From: Orobanche coerulescens
Taxonomy: Eukaryota; Streptophyta; Magnoliopsida; Lamiales; Orobanchaceae
Direction of reading: 5' to 3'
Assembly: GCA_033398695.1 (NCBI GenBank)
Contig: CM065817.1
Location: 68,994,001 to 69,058,000 of the forward strand
DNA length: 64,000 nucleotides
Shown: positions 16,534 to 48,650 of the stretch, piece by piece
Position numbering within the stretch: position 1 is the stretch's first letter
How the letters are laid out: the number at the start of each line of letters is the position of its first letter
Notes under the pieces: generated by a model
What the model was told of the DNA's origin: nothing
Seen by the model: the letters and a program-made list of their open reading frames with translations, nothing else
Database searches by the model: none
Position numbers and translations under genes: made by a program

Positions 16534-16649
16534 TGATTATTCTACTAATATCGATTTCAGTAATTCTAGTCTTAGTTTGAACATTTTTTTTATTATTTTT
16601 GTGTAATTTTATTTATTTGTTTTTCCTTGCAGGAATTTCCGGTTAGTGC

Positions 16650-17993: not shown

Positions 17994-18026
17994 ACGAATC
18001 CTAGAGAGAGTATTAATGCCATTAGT

Positions 18027-19472: not shown

Positions 19473-19845
19473 GAGCCGCTGCACAAGGATAGTGAGCCGC
19501 GGCACACACTAGTTGAAAGAAAAAGGCCAAACAAACTGTACTCTGTGCCACGGCACGACCTTACTGAGCCGCGGCACACTAGATCCCTGAGCCGCAGCAC
19601 ATATTCATTGAGCCGCAGCACACCAAATGTCCAAGAAATGCCCTATAGGCTGTACTCCGTGCCGCGGCACAGACCAAATGAGCCGCGAAACACTAACATG
19701 CAGAGCCGCGGCACCCGCATTCTGAGCCGCGGCACATGGCGACATAGCATACACACCCAGGCGGACTGTACTCTGGGCCACGGCTCACTTAAGTTGTGCC
19801 GCGGCCCCCGTTCGGAAGTTCAAAGGCCCAGGTACCTTTATAACA
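19473..19845 (+). promoter_or_regulatory. Motif array plus TATA box upstream of the H third ORF
   Basis: About twelve copies of GAGCCGCGGCAC or GTGCCGCGGCAC (for example 19494-19505, and near 19566, 19588, 19609, 19660, 19703, 19723), spaced irregularly 20-50 bp apart in AT-richer DNA. Some have lost CG (CCGCAGCAC). About 33 bp after the last copy is TTTATAACA (TATAA at 19839-19843). The same dialect lies in the LTR of H (33164-33319). Interpreted as an internal promoter for the ORF at 20485. Confidence 0.65.
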
Positions 19846-19949
19846 GGGATCAGCCGGCTCCCCAGGTAACTTCTTCCCCTTCCTTTGCACAAGCGATTGG
19901 CCGATATCCTCTTCTTCTCCTTCTTCTTGCATTCTTCATTCCAAGTCAG

Positions 19950-20474
19950 GTAAGCCTAAATCCCTTAATCCTTATTCATACATGATTTGACAAGTAAGGT
20001 ATGGTTATGATTATATTGTTAGTTTTTCTTTTTCAAAGTCCTATCAAGAATTGAGTTGGGAATAAGAAGTTTTTGATTGATTATTGATGTTATCAGCCGA
20101 TTATGAATAAATTGTGTATGTTATATATCGTTTGTCATGATGATCGAATTGAGGATGTTATTTTTGGGGATTAAATCAAGCTATTACAATGTTTGTTCTT
20201 CATTGGAACTCATGCATTCAAGGTGTTTGATGAAATGCATGAATGAAAATTTTTCTTTGTTAAGTCAATATTTTGAAACTATGTGCAACCGAAAATGTTT
20301 ATGGATTTACAGCACACCCCAACCCTTACGTCAAGTTTAAAACGAAAGCTCAATTTTAATGATCTCTCACAGCGGTGCTAGCTCGTTAAACTCTTTATTC
20401 ACGTTTTGCATATCTTTAGTTAAGTGATGTCGTTTTACTTACAGCTTAAGTAGTTTCCGTTGTTTATCTTTTCA
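19950..20474 (+). other. Predicted 5'-UTR intron of the H third ORF
   Basis: Donor AAGTCAG/GTAAGCC at 19949/19950 and acceptor TTTATCTTTTCAG/GAAC ending 20474 bracket 525 AT-rich bases with no coding potential. The ATG of the ORF is 10 bases after the acceptor, in a good plant start context (GCCATGG). Both sites match the plant consensus well; no transcript evidence is available. Confidence 0.5.
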
Positions 20475-20484
20475 GGAACTCGCC

Positions 20485-21804
20485 ATGGCCAGAAAAAGAA
20501 AGGTTAGCACAAGGGCTAGGACGCAATCGTCCCCCACACGAGGGGAAACTTCACAAAGCCGAGCCGAGTTGGAGTCGCACCAATTCTCCGATCCGGATAT
20601 TCATAAAATATTCAATGAAAAGATCCGTCCTCGACCTTTGATTCCGGATCGGGGATTCACTCCAGCCCCCCAGGACAGGGAGCTTCTGACCATGATAGAC
20701 AATATGGGGTAGGCCCGTTTCGCTGCACCTCCCGAGCCGGCAGTGATCTCCATTGTACAGGAGTTTTATGCTAGCGCTCTGCTGAAGCATATCTGAGCAG
20801 GGCAGATGATATCGCAGTCAGATACTCGGACTCAGGTCGTCGTCCGAGGCATTACAGTGGATTTTTCGGTGGCTGCTATTCGGAGATTATTCGAGCTGCC
20901 TGTGGTGGATGAGACGGCATATACGCGAGCTATGAGTGGCCTCACGAGGGAGGCCCTGCTCGAGACACTTACACAGCCCGGCTCCATCTGGGAGATGCAC
21001 GCCCCGGGTTCCTCGGCCTTCTACTTTAAGAGCTCGCGCCTCAGTCGGCTTGGGCGAGCCTGGTTGTATTTCATCTGCGCTCGTGTAGATCCTACCTCAC
21101 AGATTCGTTCTGTTTTACTCTCTCGTGCCCGTACACTATATGCCATCACTTCCGGGCTAAGATTGATTTGTGGCCCCTCTTATGGTCCGATCTATTCTGC
21201 TGTGTATTCAAGGAGGGGCCAAGACGGGGCTGAAGCACCCCTCTCTCATCTGCGCTCTATGCCGCCAGTCGGGCGTGACGTGGTCGGATGATGAGCCGAT
21301 GCTAGCCCCCCAGGGTCCGATTGATCATCGCATAATTTTGCACTTCGACCAGTGGGGTAGAGCGCCGGCACACGCTCGGGGGCGAGGATTTCTTCTAGAT
21401 GAGGCACACGAGCAGTCCCCCGAGCCTCTTCTGCTGACGCATGGGCAGGCAGAGTCCTGCCCGCCGCCCGACAGAGAGCATTTGCAGGCGATGTTCGACG
21501 GCCTGAGAGAGTAGATGAGGAGAGAGAGAGAGAGAGAGAGAGCCATCTGGCTGCTTGGAGAGAGGAGATGCGGACGGAGAGAGAGAGAGAGAGCATCCTC
21601 GCAGCTGTCCGAGATGAGATGAGAGAACAGGCCCGCCGGGCCAACCGACGTGAGACGAGGCACTGGGCAGCGAGGGATGCTTTCCACCAAGATTACCTTA
21701 CTGCGTGGACGAGCCATATTATGCACCCGGACGGGCCATTCATTCCACCAGTTCGGCCAGCCACACCACCCTCCTCGCCGGACGACGCCAGCACCAGTTC
21801 ATGA
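20485..21804 (+). pseudogene. H third ORF: putative plant transposon protein domain, broken
   Basis: Starts MARKRKVSTRARTQSS, a basic N-terminus like a nuclear localisation signal. Then come RPLIPDRGFTP, an AVISIVQEFYASAL block, VVVRGITVDFSVAAIRRLFELP, and LGRAWLYFICARVDPTSQI...LYAITSG. After a frameshift near 21190 it continues with HPSLICALCRQSGV. This order of blocks matches the family annotated in plant genomes as putative plant transposon protein (often associated with Athila-like elements), function unknown. Two in-frame stops (20710-20712 and near 20794) and the frameshift break it. The C-terminal part (21500-21804) is Arg/Glu-rich and contains GA-repeat-coded residues, possibly a coiled coil. 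The ORF sits in the env position of the element. A and B carry homologues. Confidence 0.7.
21518..21592 (+). repeat. GA microsatellites inside the third ORF of H
   Basis: Two GA runs (about 21520-21541 and 21577-21592) inside the Arg/Glu-coding end of the ORF. Length change here would shift the frame, and the stop before this segment is consistent with that. Confidence 0.8.
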
Positions 21805-22357
21805 GCGGACAGTAGGGGAGTACTTGACCTTGTCTCTTATTTCATTTTACTATTTTATGTCCATTGAGATCAATGTACGTCCTATGTTTTTGGGGGGAGG
21901 GGTTTACTTTTTGTTGCTTTACTTATTCGTTTGCATTTTTTGTTATTTTTCACGTTTTTGTTGCTAGCCTTGCTTGTCGTGATATTATTTGCATTCGTGA
22001 ATTTTTCGTGCTTCTTTTTGTGTAAAACTGATGTTACGACACTGATTTCTCTCTGAAGAAACGGTTGAGTTTTAGTTGAGTTGTAGTCATCGATATCTGT
22101 TTCTATTGATTATTCATTTAGGTCCGAAATTTTTTCATTTTTGTAGAAATCTTAGCAGATAAGAAAGGAGACATACGTGTTTTCAAATCGCCGTTTATAC
22201 GTTTGGTTACATTTTTCGGTTAGCTAGTCGTCCAGTAACATATATCTTGTGGGCACTTAAATTGAGTTTAGAGTCGGACAGTTTTTCCCAAAAAGTCGAG
22301 ATATTATTTGGTCTATGATGGGAAGTCTAGTAACCGGGAGTATTCGCGTGACCCGTT
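21805..22357 (+). other. H 3' non-coding region, left of A
   Basis: AT-rich, no ORF of note. It contains a long polypurine run (GGGGGGAGGGG at about 21892-21902). From 22319 there is the first unit of a diverged repeat (AGTCTAGTAACCGGGAGTAT) that continues beyond A. Ends with target duplication CCGTT (22353-22357). Confidence 0.6.
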
Positions 22358-23902
22358 TGAAGAGATAAATTCACCACTAGAAGGGGGGTTGAATAGTGGT
22401 GATGCGGAATACCGAAATTTCTTGCGAGTAAAAAGAAAATAATGCGGAAAGTAAAGACTCAAGAATTTATAGAGGTTCGGCAACTTGCCTACGTCCTCTC
22501 TCCGACTTTCTTTTTCTATTGGCTAAAGAAAAACCACAACCTTAACTCGTCTTCTATCGGTCCGAGTTCACAACCGTTACAATCCGCTTGTCTTCTATCG
22601 GTCCAAGCTCAACCTTTCCCTCAATATGAATAATTGTTTATCTAGTGTTCTATAGGAACTAGATAATCCTCACTATACGAATATGGGAGTATAATCCTAA
22701 TAATGCCGGATCAAAGATCCTAATAACACCGGATTAGTGACTCTTGATTCGTTTCTTTTTCGCTCAAGTGTAAGTGATGCAACACTTACAACCAAATGAA
22801 AGAATACAAGGAATAATGTATAATACAATTGAAAATCGCTCTTGTATCTTCCTTTTCTCACAACTTGTAATACAATAAGATATGTAAATCTGAGCTCAAG
22901 AATGCTTTGATTGCTTGTATGCTAGAATGCTTGAATGCTTGAAGTTGTGTATTTGATACTCAAGTCCTTCGGATATTTATAGGAGTGAGACAGCCTTCAA
23001 AATCTGAAAAAATATACTATTAGCGTGCGCTAATAGATCCTTGTAGCGTGCGTTAGCGAATTTTGACTTGAGTTCTCCGAACGGTCACAAAGACTGTTGT
23101 AACGGTAAAATTCTGTGTTTAGCGTGCGCTAGTACTGATATGGTAGCGTGCGCTATCGTCTTGGTCAACTAGTCTTTGATCTTGACTTTGACAAAATCCG
23201 ATTTCCTCTCCAACGTCTCTTTTTCCAACGGCTAAATCATGATTAGCGTGCGCTAGCAAGTATGCATAGCGTGCGCTAGCATTAATTAAATCCAATATTT
23301 CCAGATTTTCCGGATCTGCATTGACTTTTGCTTCCAACGGTTGAATTTCAAACGGTAAACTGCATATTCCATTTAGCGTGCGTGCGCTACTTTACTTTAG
23401 CGTGCGCTCTTCAATTATTTCAATAACGTCGTTGCCTTGTGTAGCGTACGTAAAGACCTGACGAAGTGAGTCCGGTGGCTACCGGACTACCGACCATTAT
23501 TTCGATAGCGTGCGCTAGATATGAAAATTAGCGTGCGCTAAGTCTTCACTTTAACGTCGTAAGAATATGTCCGTAGCGTGCGCAACGTCCAGTCGAATTC
23601 CTTTTATCGACTTACGGAGACTTGCGATAGCGTGCGTTATGTATGTTGTATAGCGTCGCTATCTATAGTTTATTAGCGTACGCTATCATTCAATAGTTTG
23701 CGTGCGCTATCGATTCAGGCGACTTGAGTAGGCTGCAGCTGACTTGACTGGGCTGTGTATGAGAGTCTCGATAGCGTGCGCTACGGTATGATACGTAGCG
23801 TGCGCTAGCCATATTGTGTCCCTTCAAAATATTATCGAGCCGAGATAGATTCAATTAAATGTTTTGTATGTAACCATCATCAAAATACATTTTGTGTCAA
23901 CA
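22358..23902 (-). repeat. A 3' LTR
   Basis: On the element strand TGTTGACACAAAATG...TTATCTCTTCA. It has about 20 TAGCGTGCGCTA-type motifs (23020-23805), TATA box at 22974-22981, and a U5 block AGAGGTTCGGCAACTTGCCT (plus strand, about 22471) shared with F and B. The first 740 bp and last 240 bp look identical to the other LTR; the differences concentrate in 23101-23660. Confidence 0.95.
22974..23805 (-). promoter_or_regulatory. Motif array plus TATA box of LTR A (3' copy)
   Basis: Roughly 20 copies of TAGCGTGCGCTA and variants, often in close pairs 15-25 bp apart. The nearest (23020-23033, TTAGCGTGCGCTAA) is 38 bp upstream, in element orientation, of TATAAATA at 22974-22981. This is the densest array in the window. 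Confidence 0.7.
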
Positions 23903-24311
23903 ATCTCCCCCTTTTTGATGATGTCAAAACATTTAATTAATACCTGCAAAAACGTTTTGAAATGATTCGAATCAAGATAAACTTGTTCGATATGTTAGTC
24001 GGTTTTCGTTTTTGGAGTTTTCTCCCCCTTTTTGACAGAAACAAAAAGGAACTCCCCCTGAATTGTTGCATTATTAATAAACATTAACTAAATTTTGCCA
24101 TTACTCAATGGTGCAATCAACAATGATAGTAACAACGATAGTAACAATACTAGGAGATATTAAGTACGAGTACATAATAAATGCCAAATTTGAGAAATGC
24201 GAATTTCATTAATAATAAAATGCAGTGAATACAACTAGTTTTCCATGACAGACGAAACATATAGCTTGTTCGAACACAAGTGTCTACATCAAACATCAAA
24301 GATCATTAAGT
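23903..24311 (-). other. A 3' non-coding region with two polypurine tracts
   Basis: AAAAAGGGGGAGATTG (minus strand, 23903-23918) borders the LTR and is the likely plus-strand primer. A second set of runs (AAAAAGGGGGAG and CAGGGGGAG) lies at about 24022-24060. Repeated polypurine runs are usual in SIRE-like elements. No gene. Confidence 0.7.
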
Positions 24312-25573
24312 CTAAGGATCGGAGGAGGATGAAGGAAAGGGAAACGAGGGGTGAGTGTAGCGTATGAACTCGGATAACAGTCCACGAACTTCCCGGACTT
24401 CCGAATGCACATCTCTGACTTCCGAACGCAGAGCCCGAAAGTCCTCTCGTAACTCAGCGTGTGAAGTCTCGATGCCCCGCATCCGAGCAAAGAGATCACT
24501 CTCTTCTTCCTCCGTCACCACATTTCGCATGGTGCTTGCCTTTCAAGTAGGTTTCTGATGAATTCCCAGGTTGCATTTCTCGAAGGGTGTGAGGTCCCGA
24601 CGAGTGATCATTTCTTCGGCAGAGGGCTTCCGTGACCCTTTCTCAACTTGGTCATCATCGCGAAGGTACGGAAGAGAATCCGACCTCTGTTGATCGTACG
24701 GACGTAATGCATTGCTTTAAGTGACGCGTCCGAGATCTCATGCCCGAGGGAGAGGGGGACTGCCTTGTCCTTCGACAAGTCCACTTGATGGAAGCTAAAG
24801 ATAGCCGACAAGATAGAGCCATAAGGCATTCCAGCCTTGCGAGAGCGAGTGGCGTAATTTTTCGACCGGAACAGATCTCCTTTCACCTTCATCCAACTAA
24901 TGATGATGTCGGAGAAGTCAACCTTATCGTCATTTAGAATGCGGTAAACCACGTGCTTGTCCACGCCTACAAGTTTATGCTGCGAATTGACCTTTGGCAT
25001 AAGACATTTTGTGAGGGCTACCAAAAGCAAACGAATGTTAATTCCGAAGTCGTTGTTCTCAAAAAAATCATCCGTTATGTCAATAACGGCTTTCGTGCTC
25101 AGAAATTCTTTCACGTCAATTTCACCAATTTCATTATCGTCGACCAATGATTTTCCAGTGCAAATCAAGCCATCTCTGGGCAAACCAAAAATTTGAAACA
25201 GGATATCGGAAGAAACTTTCACCTTGGTTCCTCCGACAAGGCTACCTAGCACAAGGGCTGAAGAACCTTCACTCTCGGCCACGTGAAGGTTAGCATAGAA
25301 TTCCCGGACGAGCTCAGGAAACACAGGGTTTTTGCATTCAACGAAGCGAGAAATACCGAGTGAGGAGAAAAAATTGGAGATGTTAACGTTTACCCGTTCG
25401 AGACTTAGAAGATTGAAAAAGTAGCAATCCGTGATGTGTTCTTGAGGAAGTATGTCGAAGAACACTCTTGAAGCAGTGGCTGAGACGAATCGATCCGAAT
25501 CGAATTGGGCGTTTAGAGGGCGCTTCAAATTGTTGTATTGCTTGCCCATAGCCGTTCGATTCTTGCTAGACAT
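24312..25573 (-). CDS. A third ORF: putative plant transposon protein, env position
   Basis: 321-aa open frame from ATG 25573 to a stop at 24608, followed in another frame by a short coiled-coil tail (24312-24530, Glu/Arg-rich heptads). The N-terminus is basic. Blocks homologous to B: FFNLLSLERVNVNISNFFSS near residue 50, LVREFYANLHV near 90, FGLPRDG near 130, ENNDFGINIRLLLVALTKC near 170, CLMPKVNSQHKLVGVDKHV, MPYGSILSAIF near 260, LKAMHYVRTINRGRI near 295. The EFYAN and FGLP blocks also occur in H. The family has no known function. I see no signal peptide or membrane helix, so it is not envelope-like despite its position. A single frameshift before the tail is the only lesion, in contrast to gag-pol. 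Confidence 0.8.
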
Positions 25574-25706
25574 GATCGGAGAAGGAGAAAAACGAAGGGA
25601 ATCGAAGATTTTTTAGGAAGAAGATCGCAGATAGGATCGGACGCTGTCTAGGGTTTTTGCAAGAGAGAAGACGATTGCGTGCGTTAAGGGATGTGTTTGT
25701 ACGGCA

Positions 25707-25909
25707 TATATATAGTCAGCGAGTTTTAAGTTAGCGTACGCTAGGATTTATAAGGTTAGCGTACGTTAGGCAAAAAATAGAGGCTCACTGGACTGTTCAG
25801 TGAAAATCGAAGAAACTTTAATTAGCGTACGCAAGAAGGAAAAGTTTAACGTACGCAAGCGAAATAAAATTTTAGCGCGCGTTAAGAATATGAAGCTAGC
25901 GCGCGCTAG
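25707..25909 (-). promoter_or_regulatory. Motif array plus TATA box upstream of the A third ORF
   Basis: Six motifs in 180 bp: TTAGCGTACGCTAG (25731-25744), TTAGCGTACGTTAG (25756-25769), two half-sites ending CGCAAG near 25822 and 25847, TTTAGCGCGCGTTAA (25871-25885) and CTAGCGCGCGCTAG (25896-25909). About 16 bp downstream, in element orientation, is TATATATA (25707-25714), and the ATG follows about 134 bp later. The layout matches that of B (48507-48650). Confidence 0.7.
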
Positions 25910-25949
25910 CGATTGATCTGACTCACCGATTTTGATGTTTTGAGTAGAA

Positions 25950-28075
25950 GCTTATTTCAAAAATTGTCTATATGTCCCATGCCAAGTTGTAAACGAATGG
26001 AATTAATAGATTCTTCGGGAAGAGGTTTCGTAAAGATGTCAGCAAGTTGATCCTTCGTCCCGACAAAAATTAAACAGATATCTTTCTTTTGAACATGATC
26101 ACGTAAAAAGTGATGTCTGATATCTATATGCTTGGTTATTTATGCGAGCAGGATTTTTGCTCAAATTAATAGCACTAGTGTTATCACATAAAATAGGGGT
26201 ATTTTCAAAATGAATGCCGTAGTCGCGTAGTTGATTTTTAATCCATAGCACTTGAGCACAGGCGCTCCCTGCAGCGACATATTCGGCCTCAGCTGTAGAC
26301 AATGCTACGCTGGTTTGCTTTTTACTTCCCCAAGATATTAAGCAAGATCCAATAAAATGACATGTACCACTAGTACTCTTTTTATCAATTTTGCATCCGC
26401 CGAAATCGGCGTCACTATAGGCAATTAAATTAAAATCCAAGCAAGAAGGATACCATAGACCTAGTCCAATAGTTCCTTTCAAATAACGAAAAATATGGTT
26501 ACAAGCAATTAAATGTGATTCCTTGGGATTAGCTTGGAATCGAGCACATAGACATGTAGCAAATATTATATCTGGCCTAGATGCAGTCAAATATAACAAA
26601 GATCCGATCATACCTCGATATAGTTTTTGATCTACGGATTTGCCATTTTCATCTTTCTCGAGCTTTAATGATGACGACATTGGCGTAGATATCACCTTGC
26701 TATTTTCCATATTGAATTTCTTGAGGAGGTCGTTTGAGTACTTCGTTTGATGGATAAAAATTCCATCTTCGCATTGCTTGATTTGAAGTCCGAGGAAGAA
26801 CGTTAATTCTCCCATCATACTCATTTCGAATTCTCCTTTCATAAGATTAGAAAAATCTTGGCACAAGGATTCATTAGTAGCTCCAAAAACAATGTCATCA
26901 ACGTAAATTTGGCAAACAAGTATATCATCATTTAGTACTTTAACGAACAAGGTATTATCGACTTTGCCTCTTTTATAGTCATTTGCTATTAAAAATTGAC
27001 TTAAACGATCATACCATGCTCGGGGTGCTTGTTTCAACCCGTAGAGTGCCTTGTTGAGCTTGTAGACATGATCCGGAAAATGATGGTCTTCAAAACCGGG
27101 AGGTTGCTTGACGTAGACTTCTTCTTGAATGAAACCATTCAAGAATGCACTTTTGACATCCATTTGAAATAGTTTTATCTTCTTATGAGCGGCAAATGCA
27201 CAAAGCAAGCGAATGGCTTCGAGTCGAGCCACGGGAGCAAAACTTTCCTCGTAATCAAGACCTTCTTCTTGATTATATCCTTGAGCGACCAAACGAGATT
27301 TATTTCGAATAGGATAGCCGTCTTCGTCACTCTTGATTTTATGCACCCATTTAGTTCCGATAATTGTTTTATCTTTAGGCGCGGGAACTAAATTCCATAC
27401 ATTATTGTGCTTGAATTGCACAAGCTCTTCTTGCATTGCCATTACCCAACTTTCATCATCGAGAGCTTCCGATATATTTTTGGGAACTATTTCGGATACA
27501 AAAGCACAATGAGCCATAAACTCGGTGGTCCTCCTTCGGGTTTGAACACCGTCTTCAATGTTTCCGATCACGAGATCCTTCGGATGGTCCTTGATGTGCC
27601 TCCAATCTTTCGGTAAATCAACGATTGTGTTCGTTTCGATTTCCGAAATTTTCTTCACTTCGGGTGAGGGATCCGGAAAGGTACCTGCATCATCAAAATA
27701 TTCTACCTTTCTCGGGGGTGAGATCATATCGTTGAATTTAACGTGTATGGACTCTTCAACTTTATTTGTTCTAATATTATACACACGATACGCTTTGCTA
27801 TTAGTACAATAACCAAGAAAAATTCCGGAGTCGGATTTGGCATCAAACTTGCCCAAGTTATCCTTGCCATTGTTCAAAATAAATACATTGCAACCAAAAG
27901 GATGAAAGTAAGCAATATTAGGCTTTTTGCCCTTCCATAATTCATAAGGCGTTTTAAGATGAGTTCTACGAACGTGAACTCGGTTAATCACATAGCATGC
28001 CGTAAAAATTGCTTCGGCCCAAAAGTATCGTGGAAGAGAGTATTCATTAAGCATTGTTCTCGACATTTCTTCCAA
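25950..28075 (-). pseudogene. pol: A integrase C-terminus, reverse transcriptase, RNase H
   Basis: A 658-aa open frame (28075-26099), the longest in the window. The integrase end ([28 protein letters not shown]) takes the first 100 residues. RT starts near residue 205 ([11 protein letters not shown]). Catalytic Asp are in QMDVKSAF (about 304) and YVDD (391-394). RNase H follows ([19 protein letters not shown]). A short deletion near 26150 shifts the end; the normal tail ([22 protein letters not shown]) can still be read in another frame down to about 25950. Confidence 0.9.
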
Positions 28076-28189
28076 AGATCGGTTTTTCCTTTCAACAACT
28101 CCATTTTGTTGAGGCGTTCTAGGAGCCGAAAATTGTGATTAATACCGTATTTATCGCATAAAAGTTCAAACGGGTGCAATCAAATTCAC

Positions 28190-30665: not shown

Positions 30666-30713
30666 TTGCGGATCTTTTTCTCCTAGGTGGTTAAACCTAT
30701 AAAAAAGTGACCC

Positions 30714-30727
30714 GCTCCGATACCAAC
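30714..30727 (-). other. A primer-binding site (tRNA-iMet type)
   Basis: Minus-strand GTTGGTATCGGAGC directly abuts the 5' LTR. Matches TGGTATCAGAGC with one A-to-G difference that recurs in B, C and D. Confidence 0.85.
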
Positions 30728-32272
30728 TGAAGAGATAAATTCACCACTAGAAGGGGGGTTGAATAGTGGTGATGCGGAATACCGAAATTTCTTGCGAGTA
30801 AAAAGAAAATAATGCGGAAAGTAAAGACTCAAGAATTTATAGAGGTTCGGCAACTTGCCTACGTCCTCTCTCCGACTTTCTTTTTCTATTGGCTAAAGAA
30901 AAACCACAACCTTAACTCGTCTTCTATCGGTCCGAGTTCACAACCGTTACAATCCGCTTGTCTTCTATCGGTCCAAGCTCAACCTTTCCCTCAATATGAA
31001 TAATTGTTTATCTAGTGTTCTATAGGAACTAGATAATCCTCACTATACGAATATGGGAGTATAATCCTAATAATGCCGGATCAAAGATCCTAATAACACC
31101 GGATTAGTGACTCTTGATTCGTTTCTTTTTCGCTCAAGTGTAAGTGATGCAACACTTACAACCAAATGAAAGAATACAAGGAATAATGTATAATACAATT
31201 GAAAATCGCTCTTGTATCTTCCTTTTCTCACAACTTGTAATACAATAAGATATGTAAATCTGAGCTCAAGAATGCTTTGATTGCTTGTATGCTAGAATGC
31301 TTGAATGCTTGAAGTTGTGTATTTGATACTCAAGTCCTTCGGATATTTATAGGAGTGAGACAGCCTTCAAAATCTGAAAAAATATACTATTAGCGTGCGC
31401 TAATAGATCCTTGTAGCGTGCGTTAGCGAATTTTGACTTGAGTTCTCCGAACGGTCACAAAGACTGTTGTAGCGTAAAATTACGTGTTTAGCGTGCGCTA
31501 GTACGATATGGTAGCGTGCGCTATCGTCTTGGTCAACTAGTCTTTGATCTTGACTTTGACAAAATCCGATTTCCTCTCCAACGTCTCTTTTTCCAACGGC
31601 TAAATCATGATTAGCGTGCGCTAGCAAGTATGCATAGCGTGCGCTAGCATTAATTAAATCCAATATTTCCGCATTTTCCGGATGCATTGACTTTTGCTTC
31701 CAACGGTTGAATTTCAAGCGGTGGCGCATATTCCATTTAGCGTGCGCTAGCACCTTTACTTTAGCGTGCGCTACTGAATTATTTCAATAACGTACGTTTC
31801 CTTGTGTAGCGTACGTAAAGACCTAGACGAAGTGAGTCCAGTGGCTACTGGACTACTGACCATTATTTCGGTAGCGTGCGCTAGATATGAAAATTAGCGT
31901 GCGCTAAGTCTTCACTTTAACGTACGTAAGAATATGTCTGTAGCGTGCGCAACGTCCAATTATGAATTCCTTTTACTGACTTCTGGAGACTTGCGATAGC
32001 GTGCGTTATGTATGTTGTATAGCGTGCGCTATCTATAGTTTATTAGCGTACGCTATCATTCAATAGTTTGCGTGCGCTATCGATTCAGGCGACTTGAGTA
32101 GGCTGCAGCTGACTTGACTGGGCTGTGTATGAGAGTCTCGATAGCGTGCGCTACGGTATGATACGTAGCGTGCGCTAGCCATATTGTGTCCCTTCAAAAT
32201 ATTATCGAGCCGAGATAGATTCAATTAAATGTTTTGTATGTAACCATCATCAAAATACATTTTGTGTCAACA
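30728..32272 (-). repeat. A 5' LTR
   Basis: Partner of 22358-23902, same length. TATA box at 31344-31351; array to about 32180. Between about 31471 and 32030 it differs from the 3' LTR in some 16 clustered places while the rest looks identical. Confidence 0.95.
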
Positions 32273-32995: not shown

Positions 32996-34239
32996 TGTTA
33001 GGCGTATTTTTATACGCTTATTTATCATTATTCTTTATCCATTTTTATGTCTAAACCTGCATAAATGAGCCTTTAATGCACTATTCTTTTATGTTTGGCA
33101 GGAAATTGGAGTCCGGAAGCTCAAATGATAAAAACGAGCGAAAACGGCAAATTTTGGCCTGGGGCCGCGGCACAAGGAAAGCGGGCCGCGACACACGAAT
33201 GTGACCTGAAAGTGCCGAACCAACTGTACCCTGAGCCGCGGCACAAGGATGCTGAGCCGCGGCCCAGAAGGAAAATGTCGCGCCCAGGCAACTCGCTGAA
33301 AGTCAGGGGCCGCGGCACAGATTAAGTAATTAGGGAGAATGATCGGAGGATCGTTTTGGAGGCTGATGAGAGTTATAAATAAAGGTTTAAGGTCATAATT
33401 AGGGAGAATGATCGGAGGATCGATCATCATCAAGGAAGAGAAGCAGAAACCACCAAGGAGCAGAGAGCGGAAGCTAGAGAATGGAGGAATCCGAGCTCTT
33501 CAACTGCGTTTGATCTTTATGCTTTCTTCAATTACTTCTGTATTTTTATTCCTTAGCATGTCAGGCTAAAACCTTGTTCTAGGATTTTGATGAAACTGAG
33601 GTTTTGACGGATTTACTTTGATTATCTATATAATTCCCTTTTCTGTTGAGTTTTCCCAATTTTTTTTAATGTTTTCAATTGTGTGGCCTATAATTGAATT
33701 GTTTTAATTACGCAACTCGAATCGGGAGAGGAGAGTTGGTGAGGAAATATTGGTGAGAACCGTTTTATCTTGTGAGATAGGAATATACTCATAGGAACTA
33801 CGTGGCCTTTTTGAAGATTCTGTGCCTTTTGCCTATTGTCGAATTAATTCACCTAGGGATAGAGTGTATTATTCGCCTTAGAAAAATCTACTGACCTCGG
33901 GAGAGACGGTAGAGTACTTTAGCAACCTTCGCCTTAAATAAATTGGGAAATGATTAACTTCAGATAATCGAGAGTAAATTTGGATAAAACGAGGTGGATC
34001 ACAATCCTAGATTTATTTCTTATTTGATTTTCTTTCTTCAATCGATCGTTTTTACTATTTATTATTTTATTGGTTTTCTTTAGTTATTACGTGCAACTCA
34101 ACCTTCGACAGTTCAAATAAAATTAGAATACATATAAATCGATAATTAGTAATTCAGTCCTCGTGGGAACGATATCTTACTCATCATTTTATTACTTGTC
34201 TACGATAACGTGCACTTGCGTTAAATGAAATTCGCAACA
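32996..34239 (+). repeat. H 3' LTR (complete, about 1.24 kb)
   Basis: TGTTAGGCGTATTTTTATAC...AAATTCGCAACA. The array is at 33164-33319 and TATAAATA at 33374-33381. A 27-bp duplication (TTAGGGAGAATGATCGGAGG, at about 33339 and 33401) flanks the TATA box. No ORF. Confidence 0.85.
33164..33381 (+). promoter_or_regulatory. Motif array plus TATA box of LTR H
   Basis: Five copies of GCCGCGGCAC or close variants (33164-33173, about 33183, 33232-33243, 33253, 33306-33319), then TATAAATA at 33374-33381. The dialect equals that of the array at 19473-19845 in the same element. The duplicated 27-bp segment lengthens the gap between array and TATA box. Confidence 0.65.
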
Positions 34240-38690: not shown

Positions 38691-40116
38691 GGCAGGGACC
38701 GGCCAGGTGCGCACGAGCGTGGTGCACGAGCTGCACGCACGAGCGAGTTGTCACAACCCGATATGCCGTGTCTGTGTTGACCGTCCAAATGAGCCGTGCC
38801 TCCTGGTTAGCTTGCCACACGAGGGGTAAAAGGGGGCGACATTAGTCCGGAGAGCTTGTCACTGGTCGAGGACTTGACAATGAAGGGGATCGTTGCGGGT
38901 AGGGCACAACTGGTCGGGGGCTACTTCCGTCTCCCTGATGAGCCCATGGCAGGGCGAAACCAGTTGGCATGCTATGTGGGATAGGCTGGCCCCGGGGTGT
39001 GAGGGCCCCCGGGACGCCGCACGGGCTTCGGAACTCCCGTCCCGTGACAAATGGTATTAGAGCTGAAACCTCTCTCAGTACGACATGGTTCGGGTGTGGT
39101 CAAGTTCTACCGAAACCGATGAGGGCGGGGAGTGAACGCCGGTGAAAAGAGGGCACGGTCAAAGTGCGGCTCCCGACAAGGCTTCTAGGCGGAGAACATG
39201 AACCGATTTTATGCGGGAATGAGAGGTGGTCCTAGGCTTGTGAGATCAGACGGTCCGGAATGTGGACACACTTGTATTGCGCACTTTTGGTAGCTCCACC
39301 TTTCGGTGACTGGGGTGTAAGAGCGTGGATCATCGTGGGCCATTGTGGGAACCTCGACATGCGGGAAAAATGCTGCGGCTGAGGGAATGTCGTTCAACCG
39401 AGGTACTAACGCCAGGAAGCGCATAGGGTGAAGGTTGATGTCGATCGGTGATGCGGTATGTGCGTGGCGCACTGCGGGCTAGCGCGAGGCGTGCGAGTGA
39501 AGAGCCTTTCCATCAAGGGTATGGTGTCGTATGTGTATGGGCACGATCGTTTTGTGTGCGTGGGACAATACAGTGTGCGGAAAGAAACATTCTTCCCCAG
39601 CACGAGGACGTGCTGCGATTTGAGTGGGGGAGGATGTCACGACCCGATATGTCGTGTCTGTGTTGACCGTCCAAATGAGGCGTGCCTTCTGGTTAGCTTG
39701 CCACAAGAGGGGTAAAAGGGGGCGACATTAGCATTAAGGCGTTGTTTGCCCGGATGCATCGGTCTGGCCGAGTCAGGCATGCTCACCCGGTTTAGTCCAG
39801 AGAGCTTGTCACTGGTCGAGGACTTGACAATGAAGGGGATCATTGCGGGTAGGGCACAACTGGTCGGGGGCTACTGCTGTCTCCCTGATGAGCCCATGGC
39901 AGGGCGAAACCAGTTGGCATGCTATTTGGGATAGAGTGGTCCCGGGGTGTGAGGGCCCCCGGGACGCCGCACGGGCTTCGGAACTCCCGTCCCGTGACAG
40001 AGTGTTCGTGCCCGGTGCTCGTGCGTTCCGGCAGTTGGCCGACAGTGGGCGCGCACGACCTGGCGCATGACCGGCCGCTCGTGCGTGCCTGCTCGTGCGT
40101 GCTGGGCAGTATATAT
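38691..40116 (+). promoter_or_regulatory. D motif array (split by the TRIM) plus TATA box
   Basis: Repeated GCACGAGC or GCTCGTGC with CGTGCG overlaps: 38711-38748 on the left of the TRIM and 40004-40105 on the right. TATATAT at 40110-40116 follows a few bases after the last copies. Rich in CG, unlike the surrounding LTR. A fourth dialect of the array-TATA layout. Confidence 0.5.
38749..39999 (+). mobile_element. TRIM: miniature LTR retrotransposon inside the D LTR
   Basis: Two direct repeats TGTCACRACCCGAT...CCCGTGACA at 38749-39049 (301 bp) and 39635-39999 (365 bp), each with short inverted ends TGTCAC/GTGACA. TGGTATTAGAGC, a tRNA-iMet primer-binding site, is at 39052-39063, and a polypurine tract GAGTGGGGGAGGA ends at 39634. 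The internal 585 bp have no coding sequence. The left LTR lacks 64 bp present in the right one, a deletion between short TTAG repeats. Flanking GAGT (38745-38748 and 40000-40003) is a 4-bp target duplication. Confidence 0.85.
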
Positions 40117-40830
40117 GATCGAGCAGACGTGTTTTTCACCCATTTTCTCATTCTTTTCCTTCTATTTTGCGGCTGGAGGTGTGGTAAACGTGTATAGATG
40201 TTGTTCAACTATCAATCCACGAAGTTATTGAGTTCATATCATTGATTGATCATCCTATATCCTCCTTTGATCCAGCGAATCAAGGTAATCTCTTCCTAGA
40301 ACCCTAGTTTCTTGAATTTTGGTGTTTTTGCATTTTTGTCCGATTCGTTCCGTATTGTTGATTAATTCATGATGGGTATGATTAATCTTGGTAGTATTCT
40401 TGTGTTTAACATCATTTAATCCATTGTTCTTCGTCGAATCGAAGTATAATTCTTGATTTCCTTCGAATCGACTTTTTGGGGGATTTGTTCTTGATTTCCT
40501 TTTCCATCCGTTTTTGATGGATCGATTGTTGTTAAATGATGTTGTTAAACATATCCTATGGATTGTATATCTATATTTCGTTTTGAAATTCCGTTTTCAT
40601 GTTTTGACGGGACGAATCGTGTTCTTGGCCATTTTGGGGGAAACACTTGAACTTTCGTTATTCATTCTTTGAATTCAACGGCTTTGAGTCGTGCTATGGA
40701 ATTCATTTTCATTGTTGTTATTGTCCTTCGTAGTTTATTATTGCGAATTGGCGTTCGGTGGAGTCGGCAGGTTCATAGTCGGTTCGTGCCAACCTACTTC
40801 GGTCGATTCTCCGCGTTGTGGTTATTAGAG

Positions 40831-41978: not shown

Positions 41979-42317
41979 GTTTGGGAGCATAACACAGGGT
42001 CGGCACGAAGGATGATGAAAGATGAACGATACTAATCACACGGGGATCCGTATGATGTCATATTGGTTTAGTTGTATTTTATTTCTGCTGCAGTATTCTT
42101 TCCCCCTTGTACGGGAGTGTGTTGTATCCGACCCCTGCGTGGGCATGTATTGTAATTGAGTTGTATGTATTTATTGAAAGACCAAATCGGTCTAGTGAGT
42201 CATTTTAGCCTTAAAGGCATCGTTGAGTTGTTCGGTTTTGTTACCAGCCTGGTAGAACCTTGAGGAAAGGTTCTACGGCGTGTAATATCCCTGAGCGGAT
42301 TGGGGGTGTTACATAAA

Positions 42318-42330
42318 TGGTATCGGAGCT
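42318..42330 (+). other. D primer-binding site (tRNA-iMet type)
   Basis: TGGTATCGGAGCT lies four bases after the LTR end. The following 200 bp are non-coding leader up to the insertion of B. Confidence 0.8.
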
Positions 42331-42539
42331 TAGGTTGTGGAAACCTAGGCTGTCGGGTCAGTGGTGTCTGTTGAGTTTTTGTCTCGTCAGATTTTATCTG
42401 ATTGAGTCATGTCGCGATGCGTCGTATGAGTTTGTTGGTCGTGATTAGTATCGTGGGCGATCATCATCTTCGTGCGACCTGTGGATGTAAGTCTCCCTTC
42501 TTTGTGTTTGTGCTTCGTCTGATGCGAGTTACAGGTATG

Positions 42540-43598
42540 GGTTGGAACAATAATTTTTAGATAATTTTATACATTTTGATGATGTGTTATTAAAACCAAA
42601 ATTTACTTAAAACATATTTTTCCTTCAGTTAACGTACGTAAATCAAACCATCTTAACGTACGTAATATTCATAGTTGTTTGCAAGAATTTCAGTACAGTT
42701 AACGTCCGTTACTCGCCTATCATAACGTACGTAACACTCATTATTTTCATAAGTTTTTCTGTACAGGTAACGTACGTAACCAGCTCTAGCTAACGTACGT
42801 AAGGTTTGAAATATTCTGACCGTTGGAAAAGTCATTAGCCGTTACAACAAGTCGTCACACTCAACGGATCTCTGACTGGAAGACTACGTACGTAACCATA
42901 CAGTTCATAACATAGGTAACGTATATTGTCAGATCTCACTGAACCAGTTCTTCACTGATCGTTATGGCCGCTACGCAAAGCATATAACGTACGTAACATT
43001 CATAACGTACGTAACCAACAGCGCCTAACGTACGTAAGCAGTGAAACTGCTCCAACGGGAATATGAGCTCAAGAAGGCTATAAATAGGTCACTTCAAGGA
43101 GATGGAAGACGCACAAGTATTCTGAGCTTCCAAGCATACTCAAGCAATTCCAAGCATATATTTTGAGAGTTATACTTATTCCATATTGTGATACGAGAAG
43201 ATTTGTTCTATAATTTCCAATCTTCATTCTTGTATCAAAGAGCGATATATCGTGTAAAGTCAAGTTCCTACTCGCATTTGTTTTTGAAAAGGTTATCTTG
43301 TACCCGGAAAAACAAGAGAGTTTTTAGTGAGGTTGTTCTTGAGCCCAGAAATCAAGAAATTGTAAGAAGTTGGCACTAAACTAGAAAGTGCAATTCTAAG
43401 TTCTAAGAAAAGTCCTAGTCGATAAAACTAGGTAGGGGACGTAGGCTTCGTTAATAGCCGAACCTCTCGAACAATTTCTTGTGTTCTTTCTTTTCCGTAT
43501 TTTATTTACTCCGATATTTTTGCTTCCGCACAAAAAGAATTCAATACTCTTATCCGCACTATTCAACCCCCCCTTCTAGTGGCGGTACCAATCTAACA
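42540..43598 (+). repeat. B 5' LTR
   Basis: GTTGGAACAATAATTTTTAG...CCAATCTAACA. Array at 42629-43038, TATAAATA at 43079-43086, U5 block GGGGACGTAGGCTTCG near 43435, and ATTCAACCCCCCCTTCTAG near the 3' end, the usual SIRE U5 phrase. Confidence 0.95.
42629..43086 (+). promoter_or_regulatory. Motif array plus TATA box of LTR B
   Basis: About ten copies of TAACGTACGTAA (first 42629-42641, last 43025-43038), spaced 20-90 bp apart, then TATAAATA at 43079-43086, 40 bp on. The 3' LTR copy (50459-50928) has the same layout with several CG-to-TG changes. Confidence 0.7.
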
Positions 43599-43599
43599 A

Positions 43600-43614
43600 T
43601 TGGTATCGGAGCAG
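43600..43614 (+). other. B primer-binding site (tRNA-iMet type)
   Basis: TTGGTATCGGAGCAG starts two bases after the LTR end. Confidence 0.85.
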
Positions 43615-43659
43615 TCTCTTTATCACTGGATTAACACCCGCTAGAGAAAAGATCCAGAA

Positions 43660-45355
43660 ATAGCCTTTATCCACTCCTCCGTTGAAGGTAACGCTCTAAA
43701 TTGCCCTCCCTTATTCGATGGTTCAAACTTTATGACATGGAAGAAGAAGATGTCCATATTCATCCGAGCTCACGACATTGAAATATGGAAGGTCATTGCC
43801 CTTGGACCTACCATTCCTAAGAACACGGATGGCTCTCTCAAAAGTTTTGAAGAGTACGACGATGCCGACTGGAAGAACGATCACTTCAATAGTAAAGCCA
43901 CTCAATTGCTTTACTGTGCTCTCAATCCACAAGATCACAATAGAATTTCTTCTTGCGAGACGGCGAAAGAAATCTGGAAAATGTTAGAGATCACCCATGA
44001 AGGTACGAGTCAACTTAAGGAAACCAAAATCAATATGCTTCTTCACGATTATGAACTCTTCACCATGAAAGAAGAAGAAAGCATTACCACTATGCTTGAC
44101 CGTTTCTCGGCAATCACTAATGGCTAGCTTCATTCGGGAAACAGATATCAAGGAGTGATAAAGCCAAGAAAATCCTTCGGTCTCTACCAAGAGAATGGGA
44201 CGCTACTGTTACGGCTATCATGGAGTCGAAAGACCTCAACACCATAGAATTCAGCGCTCTCATCGGATCTCTCATTAATTATGAGATTGTCATTAAATCT
44301 CGAAGTTCAAAACCAAAACCCAAGGAGAGAGAAAGGACAATCGCCTTCAAAGCCAAAGAAGAAAGCGATCTAGAGGATGAACCTATCGAAGAAGAGGACG
44401 AAGAAATCGCCTTTTATGCCAAAAACATAAAGAAATTCAAAAATCTTCTACAAAGGCGCCGGAGAGACATCAAGCAAGAATCAAGGGATGAATCCAAAAA
44501 GACTCACTTCCCTCAGAATAAAAAGTTCGACAACACTTGTCGAAGGTGCGGCGTTCCAGGCCATTTTGCGAAAGATTGTCATGCAGCTGCTCCCATAAGT
44601 TCATCAAAAACACCTCATGAAAAGTTCAAAAAGAAGGAAGTTTATGTCGCCACATGGAGCGATGATGATGAGGATGATGAACCACAAGTCCAAACCAATC
44701 TTGCCTTAATGGCCCGAGCATCCGAAGATAGTGACGATGAAGTTGAGGTTAGTGATTCTCATGAAGAACTACTTGATGCTTTTGAATCCCTAAATAATGA
44801 ATACGAAAAGGCTTGCAATAGTAATAAAGATTTGAAAAAGAAAATAAAACTCCTTGAAAATGAAAATGCTAAATTATTGAAAAACAAGGAAGTTTCGATT
44901 GATCATACGAATTGTTTGGAAACCGAGAAAATTCTGAGAGATGAATTGCACAAAACTCAGAAAGAGTTAAACTTTATGTTAGAAAATTCTCATATGGTAA
45001 TGACAAATTCGAGCAACTATTATTTGGTCAAAAATTTTCTCTTTCAAAACAAGGACTTGGATATAATTCATTTCCAATGAAAAAGTCCTTAGAAATTACC
45101 ACGGAAGATTCGGACACTTTAAAAACGGGAATTCCTTCAGGTCCAAAATGTTTAAAACCTGGACATACCGAAGCTTACTGTCGTAATTCTAGACGTACAA
45201 TAAGGATCAAGCAAATTTGGGTACCAAAAGGGACCATTGTTAAAAATCAAGTTTTTGTATCTAACTCCTCAGGACCCAAATTAGCCTGGGTACCTATAGA
45301 ACGGAAGAAAATTGTTTTTGTAGGTACAAGAAAGGAAGGCAACATTATCAAATAA
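43660..45355 (+). pseudogene. gag: B gag, start codon lost and frameshifted
   Basis: The expected ATG is ATA at 43660-43662; the frame then reads to LFDGSNFMTWKKKM and INMLLHDYELF, and stops after a short deletion at 44127. It resumes at 44220 in another frame (MESKDLNTIEFSALIGSLINYEI), with zinc knuckle CRRCGVPGHFAKDC near residue 115 and a long Lys/Glu coiled coil. A second knuckle follows at about 45145-45180 (GPKCLKPGHTEAYC) in which the first Cys has become Gly (TGT to GGT). Stops at 45078-45080 and 45353-45355. Confidence 0.85.
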
Positions 45356-48300
45356 ATGGTATGTTGATAATGGATGTTCAAATCACATGAGTGGAAATGA
45401 ACATCTCTTCACGGAGATGAAAAAGGAAGATTGTGGCTGTGTTACCTTTCGCGATAATAAAAAGGGCCAAATAAAAGGGACAGGTAAAATTGGTAAGAAA
45501 CCTCTACCTACTATTGAAAATGTTCTATTTGTTGATGGACTTTGCCATAATCTTCTAAGTGTTTCCCAACATTGTGACACCGGTTTTAAATTAATTTTTG
45601 AAATTACGCATTGCACGACAATGAGAAAAGACCAAATCGTTTTTATTGGTTTGCGTTATGGAAATATTTACATTGTTGATCTCCAAGATGAATCTTCTTT
45701 CAACAAAAAATGTCTACTTTCATACGATGAAAATGCCGTTATTTGGCACCGAAAATTGGGACATGCCTCTTTACCACTTCTTTCAAAATTGGCCAAAAAT
45801 GATATTGTCCGTGGTCTACCAAAATTAAATTTCAGAAAAGACCACATTTGTGAGGCTTGTATTAAAGGTAAACATGCAAGAGGCTCGTTCAAACCAAAAA
45901 TGGAAATTTCCACTAGTCGCATTCTTGAATTAATTCATATGGATTTAATTGGTCCGTCTCGACATGCCAATCTAACAGGTAAACTTTATACTTTAGTTCT
46001 TGTCGATGATTTTTCGAGATTTACTTGGGTAAAATTCTTAGCTAATAAAGATGATGCTTTTAACGAGTTTGTTAAGTGGTGTAAGGTTACCTAGAAGGAA
46101 AAATAATTACCAGTTATCGCCATTCGAACCGATCATGGTGGAGAATTTGATTCTAATCTCTTTGAAGATTGGTGCGATAAATATGGTATTGGACACAACT
46201 TTTCGGCACCTCGGACACCTCAATAAAATGGAGTTGTCGAGAGGAAGAATCGCTCTCTAGAAGAAATGAGCCGGACAATGCTCAATGAGTATGGTCTTCC
46301 TAAATATTTTTGGGCCGAAGCCGTTAACACTGCTTGTTATGTTATTAATCGTGTCCATCTCAGGAGAAACAAAATGATGACTCCCTATGAGATTTTTAAA
46401 GGTAAAAAGCCCAATTTATCCTATTTTCATCCTTTTGGTTGTAAAGTGTTTATTCATAATAATGGTAAGGATAATTTGGGTAAATTCGATTCAAAATTAG
46501 ATATTGGAATATTTCTTGGTTATTCTACTAACAGTAAAGCGTATCGTGTATTTAATTATAGAAGAGACTCGGTAGAAGAGTCTATTCATGTAAAATTCGA
46601 TGATACAGTTTTACCCCCGAGAAAGGTTGTTTTTTATGATGATGCAGGTATGGTTCTAGCTAACGAAGTATCCGAAGTATCATAGGAGTTGGAGAAACTC
46701 GACGTAAGCTCGGACAAGCAGGAGGAAAATTCTTACAACCTTCCTAAAGATTGGGCAAATGTGAAAGGCCATCCGATGAAACAAATTCTTGGAAAAATCG
46801 ATGAAGTTGTACGAACTAGGAGGAATATAAATGAATGTATTAACAATATTGTATTTATTTCTCTTACAAAACCAAAGAATATCGATGAGGCCATAAATGA
46901 TGAGAACTGGGCTATTGCTATGCAAGAAGAGCTAAACCAATTCGAAAGAAATAATGTTTGGGAATTAGTTCCGGCACCGGTAGACAAATCAGTCATTGGC
47001 ACCAAATGGGTTCATAAAATCAAAACCGATGATGATGGTCTCCGTATTAAAAATAAATCGAGGTTGGTTGCCCAAGGTTACAATCAAGAAGAAGGGTTGG
47101 ACTATGAAGAAACATTTGCTCCTGTTGCTCGTCTTGAAGCTATTCGTCTTCTCTGTGCTTTTGCCGCATACAAGAAGATCAAACTCCATCAAATGGATGT
47201 AAAAAGTGTGTTCCTAAATGGAATCATCCAGGAGGAAGTGTATGTCAAGCAACCTCCGGGTTTTGAAGATTATGATCATCCGGATAATGTGCACAAGCTC
47301 CATAAAGCTCTCTATGGATTAAAACAAGCTCCGAGAGTATGGTATGATCGTTTAAGCTCTTTTCTTATTTCAAATGGGTATAAAAGAGGTAATGTTGATA
47401 ATACCTTATTCATTAAAATTTTAAGTGATGATATGCTAATTTGTCAAATTTATGTGGACGATATTGTTTTTGGTGCAACTAACGAATCTCTGTCCAAAGA
47501 ATTTTCAAATCTTATGAAGGGAGACTTCGAAATGAGTATGATGGGAGAGTTGAAAAACTTTCTCGGACTCCAAATAAGGTAACTCAATGACGGAATTTTC
47601 ATTCACCAATCCAAGTACGTCAATGAGATCCTAAAGAAATTTAAGATTGAAGATTGCAAAGAAATATCCACTCCTATGTCTTCTACTCTTAAACTCGACA
47701 AAGATGAAAAAGGTAAATCTGTTGACCAAAAACAGTATCGAGGTATGATCGGCTCTTTACTTTATTTAACTGCATCTAGACCCGATATAATGTTTGCTAC
47801 TTGTCTATGTGCTCGCTTTCAAGCAAATCCTAAAGAATCTCATCTCATTGCATGCAAAAGGATTTTTCGATATTTAAAATATACTGCTTGCTTAGGCCTG
47901 TGGTATCCCTCTAGCATTGATTTTCAATTTTTTTCATATAGTGATGCCGTCTTCGGTGGATGTAAAATTGATAGAAAAAGCACCACCGGAACTTGTCATT
48001 TTATGAGTTCGTGTTTAATTTCATGGGGGAGTAAGAAACAGACTAGTGTCGCTACTTCCACACCTGTGCGAATATGTGGTCATGGGAAGTGCATGTGCAC
48101 AAGTCCTTTGGATCAAAAATCAATTACTTGATTATGGCATCGAACTTAAAAATACTCATATTTTTTGTGACAATACGAGTGCCATTAATTTAAGCAAAAA
48201 CCCCATTTTGCATAGTAGGATAAAACCCATAGAAATTCGTCACCATTTTATTCGTGACCATGTCCAAAATGGGAATGTTCGTCTCCAATTTGTTGGTACT

Positions 48301-48399
48301 AATGAACAATTGGCGGATATTTTTACAAAACCATTACCCGAAGAGGCTTTCAATTTTATTCGCATAAATTTAAGAATGGGACATGTTGATCATTTTTAA
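45356..48399 (+). pseudogene. pol: B protease, integrase, RT and RNase H
   Basis: One frame (phase of 45387) holds almost all of it. The protease site is WYVDNGCSNHM, with Asn for the usual Ser of D-S-G. Then come integrase ([47 protein letters not shown]), RT ([17 protein letters not shown]) and RNase H (YSDAVFGGC, with V where A has D). Stops at 46092, 46104, about 46222, 46683 and 47580 are single codons, several fitting Gln-to-stop change (CAA/CAG to TAA/TAG). A frameshift near 48070 displaces the end (ADIFTKPLPEE), which stays open to 48399. Confidence 0.9.
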
Positions 48400-48506
48400 A
48401 TGTTGCATAATCATCATAGTTACATTAAATGGTCATTTAAATCGGGACATCATCGAAAGGAAAAGACTGTTCATTTGGTCTTGCTTACGGACATTAAGAA
48501 GGGTCC

Positions 48507-48650
48507 ATTACGTACGTAATAGGACCTTACGTACGTTACAGGACGTAACAAATCGCAGGATTTCGCCCAGAGACATCAGATTTTCATGCTACGTACGTTA
48601 CAGATAGGGTATAACGTACGTAATCTGCCTATGACCCTAATACTTATAAA
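48507..48650 (+). promoter_or_regulatory. Motif array plus TATA box upstream of the B third ORF
   Basis: Four motifs in 118 bp: ATTACGTACGTAAT (48507-48520, a perfect 14-bp palindrome), CTTACGTACGTTAC (48526-48539), CTACGTACGTTAC (48589-48601) and ATAACGTACGTAAT (48610-48623). TATAAA at 48645-48650 comes about 20 bp later, and the ATG 128 bp after that. Same dialect as the LTR of B. Confidence 0.7.

Follow-up and report, generated by a model that had tools for sequence, protein, structure and literature searches.

The third open reading frame (ORF3) of certain long terminal repeat (LTR) retrotransposons in Orobanche coerulescens very probably has a promoter of its own, controlled by a factor that would also act on the promoter in the LTR. 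The elements lie in a stretch of 64,000 nucleotides (hereafter the window; GenBank assembly GCA_033398695.1, contig CM065817.1, positions 68,994,001 to 69,058,000), which self-comparison and a Pfam search of ten ORFs revealed to be a nest of LTR retrotransposons. A preliminary description had claimed that in three of them, copia A, copia B and element H, which we take to be Athila-like from its primer-binding-site region and the start of its LTR, an array of a short CG-containing motif followed by a TATA box stands both in the LTR and before ORF3; all six arrays were found, and all are enriched over shuffled sequence. We further propose, with a probability of roughly 0.55, that the ORF3 protein, expressed from its own promoter, would itself be the reader of both promoters.

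Motif arrays in the LTR and upstream of ORF3

Each element uses its own variant of the motif, here called a dialect. Own-dialect sites were counted against dinucleotide-shuffled sequences, with the LTR motif taken as prior. In the LTRs, 17 sites were found for A (shuffle mean 0.30, maximum 2), nine for B (mean 0.17, maximum 2) and five for H (mean 0.11, maximum 1), and in the internal regions seven (mean 0.17, maximum 2), four (mean 0.06, maximum 1) and 12 (mean 0.25, maximum 2), respectively. The gag-pol regions contained none in A and B and one in H (shuffle mean 0.30). A motif-blind count of 8-mers recovered the LTR arrays and the internal array of H; the internal arrays of A (5, shuffle maximum 6) and B (5, shuffle maximum 5) did not exceed the best shuffle, nor did the array of a further element, G. 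For the internal arrays of A and B, the evidence therefore comes from using the motif of the LTR as prior and from the other genomic copies. Among the window elements read, arrays outside LTRs occur only before an ORF3.

The half-sites are TAGCGY in A, TWACGT in B and GNGCCG in H, with CG as the most constant part in A and B and retained in H. Counts of exact 8-mer cores gave five own and two B-dialect cores in the internal array of A and 18 own and one B-dialect core in its LTR; own-dialect cores numbered four (internal) and nine (LTR) in B, seven and four in H, and six and four in a family examined later, K, and other dialects scored zero in these three. Thus, the claim of a single dialect within both arrays of an element extends further than proposed, to a fourth family. 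The companion claim that dialects differ between elements holds for H, which is far from A and B, and needs to be restricted otherwise, as the half-sites of A and B (TAGCG and TWACG) are only about one base apart and several elements may share a dialect: D, E, F and G use that of A, and C uses that of B.

The geometry of the arrays, which the preliminary description had not noted, is equally regular. The sites are CG-containing palindromes of 10-12 bp arranged in pairs, with a spacing of 23-24 bp in A and B and 21 bp in H, and a gap between paired palindromes of about 11-12 bp in all three. With only one LTR copy each of A, B and D counted, 48 of 88 site intervals measured 20-25 bp, compared with a mean of 12.6 and a maximum of 23 in 2000 random placements. 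The linkers are about as alike as shuffled ones, and the longest exact match between internal and LTR arrays is 15 bp among the matches listed, which do not include H. Since the linkers are unrelated and the LTR and internal arrays share little but the motif, the pairing is not a relic of duplication. A chance origin of the arrays was ruled out by the tests of shuffle enrichment, spacing and linkers and by site conservation (see below).

The arrays are also placed consistently relative to TATA boxes. The seven elements A, B, C, D, E, F and H contributed eleven arrays to this comparison, second LTR copies excluded. In ten of these arrays the last site is followed 12-56 bp later by a TATA box, against an expectation of about 0.08 TATA words in 80 bp. 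The eleventh, the second array of D, departs from this pattern, lying about 0.8 kb past the first TATA box with no TATA of its own within 110 bp. From the first base of the internal TATA box to the ATG, the distance is 141 bp in A and 133 bp in B, nearly equal as had been stated, with these values replacing the 134 and 128 bp given originally; it is about 650 bp in H, including a probable leader intron read by eye. An env-like 3' ORF would be expressed by splicing of the genomic RNA and would encode a transmembrane segment; the short stretches of A and B fit a promoter.

Conservation of the arrays and of ORF3 across the genome

The genome (3.65 Gb) was searched for further copies, and the loci fetched are the best-scoring ones, so they lean to intact copies. 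The search with the A internal promoter returned matches 96-100% identical in the best 40 of 1414 candidates, and 110 of the best 124 of 9195 candidates for the A family ORF3 were without a stop by our own count; the internal array is kept in seven of eight A loci fetched. For the B family, the best 104 of 11556 candidates are 85-92% identical apart from the window copy, and 72 of these 104 lack a stop (own count). In all 12 B loci fetched, the array is present together with a TATA box 126-133 bp before the ATG; 19 of 20 promoter stretches of B relatives, found with an Orobanche protein query (best 104 of 10598 candidates), have kept the array as well. A genome search with PF20167, the Pfam family of ORF3 (see below), gave 30 fetched loci from the best 150 of 16053 candidates. 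Among them are 26 H-type loci preceded by GCCGCGGC-type arrays, and a TATA word follows a site within 80 bp in 21 of the 26; the others are a broken H-type locus (L018), two loci of another clade (L025 and L038) and one of clade K (L028). Absence of the internal array from other copies, which the preliminary description had named as grounds for giving up its promoter reading, was looked for and did not refute that reading: most A, B, B-relative and H-type loci keep the array. Own-dialect arrays were also found on the 3' side in 8/8 A, 12/12 B and 10/10 H-type stretches, presumably within LTRs. With two mismatches allowed, 3-7 B-type matches also appear in the A loci, a consequence of the similarity of the two dialects. 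L018, where a B-dialect array accompanies an H-type ORF3, was dismissed as an exception, since by eye a copia LTR of B dialect is inserted in the ORF. In the stretch that precedes L025 (L041), a 22-bp tandem repeat containing CACGATCG words, which may or may not be a promoter array, was observed 1.6-1.9 kb upstream of the other-clade PF20167 ORF.

Sites were compared with linkers by pairwise identity, with one real copy as reference and significance assessed by rotating the site mask. Sites are better conserved in B alone (0.950 versus 0.829; 12 copies, 0/152 rotations as extreme), in B with its relatives (0.850 versus 0.559; 31 copies, L084 left out, 0/138 rotations), in A (0.986 versus 0.893; seven copies, L070 left out, 0/245 rotations) and in H-type copies (0.928 versus 0.739; 24 of 26, L011 and L015 left out, 2/288 rotations). 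Furthermore, in A, B and H the CpG columns that fall within sites show higher conservation than those elsewhere; in K the order is reversed (0.950 in sites versus 0.967).

Clade K came up in the PF20167 search and was examined after the idea had been formed. Upstream of a K copy (L042) and in five of eight K loci, ACACGGCG-type repeats immediately precede a TATA-like box, some 600-700 bp ahead of the matched ORF. The K words are single, being direct and inverted copies of a half-site. In an exact-core cross-count, K regions score for K only, and A, B and H regions never for K. The 3' LTR of a K element bears K words as well, with the TATA box in the K LTR about 180 bp from the last site, farther than in other families. 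This LTR is one of a pair (C1:175107424 and 175112699) flanking the ORF3 at 175109767; this copy (G000:C1:175107424-175113699, roughly 6.4 kb) has near-identical LTRs and ORF3 and too little room for gag-pol, and is, judged by this structure, a young non-autonomous derivative that kept ORF3. Among the remaining K loci, L028/L055 was set aside as carrying a foreign array, because by eye the A-dialect array 1.1 kb upstream is the promoter of a neighbouring reversed LTR, with its TATA on the far side; L061 likewise has an A-dialect array upstream, and in L060 no array reached the threshold. In L042:596-802, an array of the palindrome CTATCGGCCGATAG (form TNNCGNNCGNNA, as elsewhere) was seen beside a reversed TATA, representing another dialect in a neighbouring element.

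The ORF3s of A, B and H all belong to PF20167 (Transposase_32, 'putative plant transposon protein'), a relationship across copia and Athila-like elements that the preliminary description had not noted. Against a curated cut-off of 45 bits, B scores 55 bits, one piece of H 46.7 bits and A 42 bits (E 1.2e-10); A ORF3, 3 bits under the cut-off, aligns with PF20167-bearing proteins over most of its length. The frame is open across 399 codons in B, left before the C-terminal part in A and interrupted by stops in H. All three start with a basic stretch (by eye), and the PF20167 ORF3 layout comprises a basic N-terminus, a core domain and a coiled-coil-like C-terminus. A Pfam scan of the ORF3s with E up to 1 found PF20167 and no DUF1985. 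All 28 relatives of the A protein are from Orobanche, as are 13 of 17 relatives of the B protein, with the other four from Cephalotus; this distribution points to an orobanchaceous host. No ORF3 relative was confirmed among six pattern matches in viral contigs, and a pair-pattern match in one G+C-rich viral contig was taken as unrelated. Median dN/dS values of ORF3 are 0.19 in A (28 pairs), 0.15 in B (66 pairs, range 0.06-0.96) and 0.25 in K (28 pairs), demonstrating that ORF3 is under purifying selection in these families. Together with the site conservation, this indicates that both the protein and the promoter sites are maintained in A and B.

ORF3 is also present in elements where other functions are missing. 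Reverse transcriptase and integrase were not found in H with the pol pieces of C and D, which find each other, as queries; H therefore looks non-autonomous. As these domains were not found in H and the K copy consists of LTR, ORF3 and LTR, ORF3 has been kept where pol has not. The reverse seems to apply to C and D, which are gypsy elements and match Tf2-1-like SH3 and, weakly, chromodomains in Pfam. No PF20167 relative was found in them by a profile that also missed the broken ORF3 pieces of H, which Pfam and tblastn did find; one weak profile match fell in the D LTR (E 0.64). The pol of D ends within 40 bp of the LTR and that of C runs into the LTR, leaving no room for ORF3 behind pol, with a decayed copy elsewhere possible.

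The features of the window are listed in Table 1. Copia A sits inserted in H, whose 5' LTR is truncated at 15637 and has no array, so that the LTR array of H is known from the 3' LTR alone. A seventh site match in the internal region of A lies at 25675, beyond the TATA box, and the D arrays recur in the other LTR from 61051 and 62130. G (1875-3770) is a gag-only chromovirus-like element with an A-dialect array (1890-2074) in what by eye is its 3' LTR, into which LTR F appears inserted, again by eye. At 39990-40115, an array of CTCGTGCG-type words is followed by TATATA near 40113 (by eye); it seems to belong to a chromovirus-type LTR whose end is near 42312, and may represent another dialect.

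Table 1. Elements, motif arrays and ORF3s in the window (window coordinates)
Feature	Position	Strand	TATA box or remark
Copia A LTRs	22358-23902; 30728-32272	-	
Copia A LTR U3 array, 17 TAGCGYRCGCTA-type sites	23021..23807	-	TATA 22976-22981
Copia A internal array, six sites	25732..25908	-	TATATA 25709-25714
Copia A ORF3	24608..25573	-	PF20167 just under cut-off
Copia A ORF3, C-terminal part	24315-24542		different frame
Copia B LTRs	42541-43601; 50371-51430	+	
Copia B LTR U3 array, TWACGTACGTWA-type sites	42629..43037	+	TATA 43079-43084
Copia B internal array, four sites	48507..48623	+	TATA 48645-48650
Copia B ORF3, 399 aa	48778..49977	+	open; PF20167
Athila-like H gag	16647-17990		
Athila-like H protease	17994-19256		
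Athila-like H internal array	19473..19807	+	TATAAC 19839-19844
Athila-like H leader between TATA and ATG, probable intron of ~525 bp	19950-20475		splice sites read by eye
Athila-like H ORF3	20485..21804	+	stop-interrupted; one piece over PF20167 cut-off
Athila-like H 3' LTR array, GTGCCGCGGCAC-type sites	33162..33317	+	TATA 33374-33379
Chromovirus-like C LTR array, B dialect	9548..9883	-	TATA 9528-9533
Chromovirus-like D LTR array 1, A dialect	53741..53965	+	TATA 53987-53992
D second A-dialect array in each LTR	54820-55033; 62130-62345		
Copia E LTR array, A dialect	4043..4553	+	TATA 4596-4601
LTR F array, A dialect	74..211	+	TATA 224-229

Candidate readers of the arrays

An ORF behind gag-pol would need a separate message, and the internal array with its TATA box would be the promoter for it. 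Internal and LTR promoters seem to follow one plan, with pairs of palindromes about two helical turns apart and then a TATA box, and one sequence-specific factor would bind both promoters of an element. The proposal of an ORF3 promoter sharing the factor of the LTR, already made in the preliminary description, gains support from the matched dialects in four families, the site conservation in A, B and its relatives and H, and the ORF3s under selection. That this factor would be the ORF3 protein is suggested by dialects that are matched yet family-specific, by the fixed pair geometry and by the presence of one protein family in two superfamilies. From these features we infer binding of the arrays, ORF3 as the protein responsible, and activation or anti-silencing as the outcome; ORF3 would thereby switch on, or release from silencing, both its own gene and the LTR, closing a positive feedback loop. 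On a broader and more tentative view, held at somewhat under even odds, PF20167 ORF3s would be self-addressed activators or anti-silencers that co-evolve with their sites, and elements lacking ORF3, such as C and D, would exploit the factors of ORF3-bearing families through shared sites, forming a trans-acting network.

Alternatively, one or more host transcription factors may bind the arrays, with ORF3 merely sharing the LTR enhancer for co-expression and serving another function such as particle transport. Plant factors with CGT-type half-sites exist, and A- or B-dialect LTR arrays occur in elements where ORF3 was not found (C and D) and in truncated ones (E, F and G), which speaks for this reading. 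We regard it as less likely than the ORF3 protein, as it does not readily account for at least four dialects, each matched inside its own ORF3 family, for the restriction of non-LTR arrays in the window to ORF3, or for the recurrence of one protein family in copia and Athila-like elements. A sub-case of the ORF3-reader model is that ORF3 would bind the arrays mainly as an anti-silencer removing CG methylation, by analogy with the VANC proteins. The constancy of CG in the half-sites and the better-kept CpG columns in the sites of A, B and H, reversed in K, agree with such a role; moreover, the motif arrays targeted by VANC (PMC5735166) are non-coding and VANC6 motifs occur in the unrelated AT9TSD1, much as arrays do in C and D. 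The position of ten of eleven arrays directly upstream of a TATA box is instead that of an upstream activating sequence, and we consider a mainly anti-silencing function unlikely.

Two explanations dispense with a DNA-binding reader. The arrays might act in RNA, where 12-nt palindromes could pair between two molecules and so aid dimerization or packaging of the genomic RNA, within which the internal array and the 3' U3 would both lie; given ten arrays of seven elements adjoining a TATA box, pairs that keep helical spacing, and K words that are single copies of a half-site in direct and inverted orientation, such a role seems highly improbable. Tandem duplication of a 21-24 bp unit, with the arrays as its functionless by-product, would explain the regular spacing; this was rejected as scarcely credible because the linkers are unrelated and, in A, B and H, less conserved than the sites.

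Several observations weigh against the ORF3 protein as reader of its own promoter and that of the LTR. Identity between the ORF3s of A and B is only 41%, though their dialects are about one base per half-site apart. For the main pol stretch, A and B are 73% identical, and for two gag stretches the values are 54% and 40%; by this comparison, ORF3 has diverged faster than pol and not faster than all of gag, part of which diverged as fast. No solved structure in the Protein Data Bank matches the ORF3 core: a search at E up to 10 gave 48 sequences, the best of them at E 0.011; every one lies within profile positions 297-412 of 418, and most are coiled coils and 14-3-3 proteins. At the DNA level, three of eight K loci lack a K array, with an A-dialect array or none in its place, and K sites are no better conserved than linkers (0.942 versus 0.949 in five of eight, near-identical, copies; 65/124 rotations reach the observed value). 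The internal array is missing from L070, an A locus where a deletion fuses pol to the TATA region, and from the B relative L084, and no array was seen within 1.2 kb upstream of the other-clade loci L025 and L038. Finally, C (B dialect) and D (A dialect) bear LTR arrays without ORF3, which a host factor explains equally easily; these arrays may reflect either hijacking of the dialects of other elements or a host factor.

Relation to known systems and implications

The closest parallel is found in foamy viruses, in which Tas (PMC12789967) trans-activates both the LTR promoter and an internal promoter before the 3' accessory genes. A comparable second promoter is suggested here by the array, TATA box and conserved sites before ORF3; the setting differs in involving plant copia and Athila-like elements, PF20167 proteins and regular paired palindromes, with binding predicted from sequence. 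The VANDAL elements of Arabidopsis resemble the present system in that an element-encoded protein, VANC (PMC5735166), is associated with family-specific arrays of short motifs in non-coding DNA, protein and motif diverge, and sites are found in an unrelated element as well. Family-specific non-coding arrays are likewise present here. However, VANDALs are DNA transposons, VANC contains DUF1985/DUF287 instead of PF20167, and the VANC21 motif YAGTATTAY lacks CG, unlike the sites described here.

Among plant LTR retrotransposons, maize Grande gene23, for which an own promoter has been reported (as cited in PMC7264820), and the TRP28 protein of Retand, thought able to bind DNA and suggested to be regulatory (PMC11963269), are also additional ORFs between pol and the 3' LTR. 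They differ in being antisense and carrying a Transposase_28 (TRP28) domain, and the parts of these sources available describe no matched LTR and internal arrays. The 3' additional ORF of sunflower Athila 14 shares both the Pfam family (Transposase_32, PF20167) and the place of ORF3, with predicted nuclear localization; its function is left open, and no motif array is mentioned, in the accessible text (PMC11728184). Whether the extra ORFs of Athila and Tork modulate their own epigenetic landscape is similarly left open in another report (PMC12844716). The preliminary description knew of no such paired layout, which is too broad in view of foamy viruses and the Grande promoter; for plant retrotransposons, no description of matched arrays in the LTR and the promoter of an additional ORF was found in the open-access literature, covered by titles and abstract openings, with most subscription journals outside. 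The layout is therefore known in principle from foamy viruses, and its plant retrotransposon form with matched arrays appears new.

The function of the additional ORFs of plant LTR retrotransposons is unsettled, and the arrays provide a testable target for one large family: each ORF3 has a predicted binding site in two places, and the four dialects serve as built-in specificity controls. If the proposed reading is true, plant retrotransposons would contain a Tas-like or VANC-like circuit, possibly with a trans-network among unrelated elements, and PF20167 ORF3s would constitute a set of new CG-reading DNA-binding proteins. Such a self-controlling circuit could explain how these elements get switched on.

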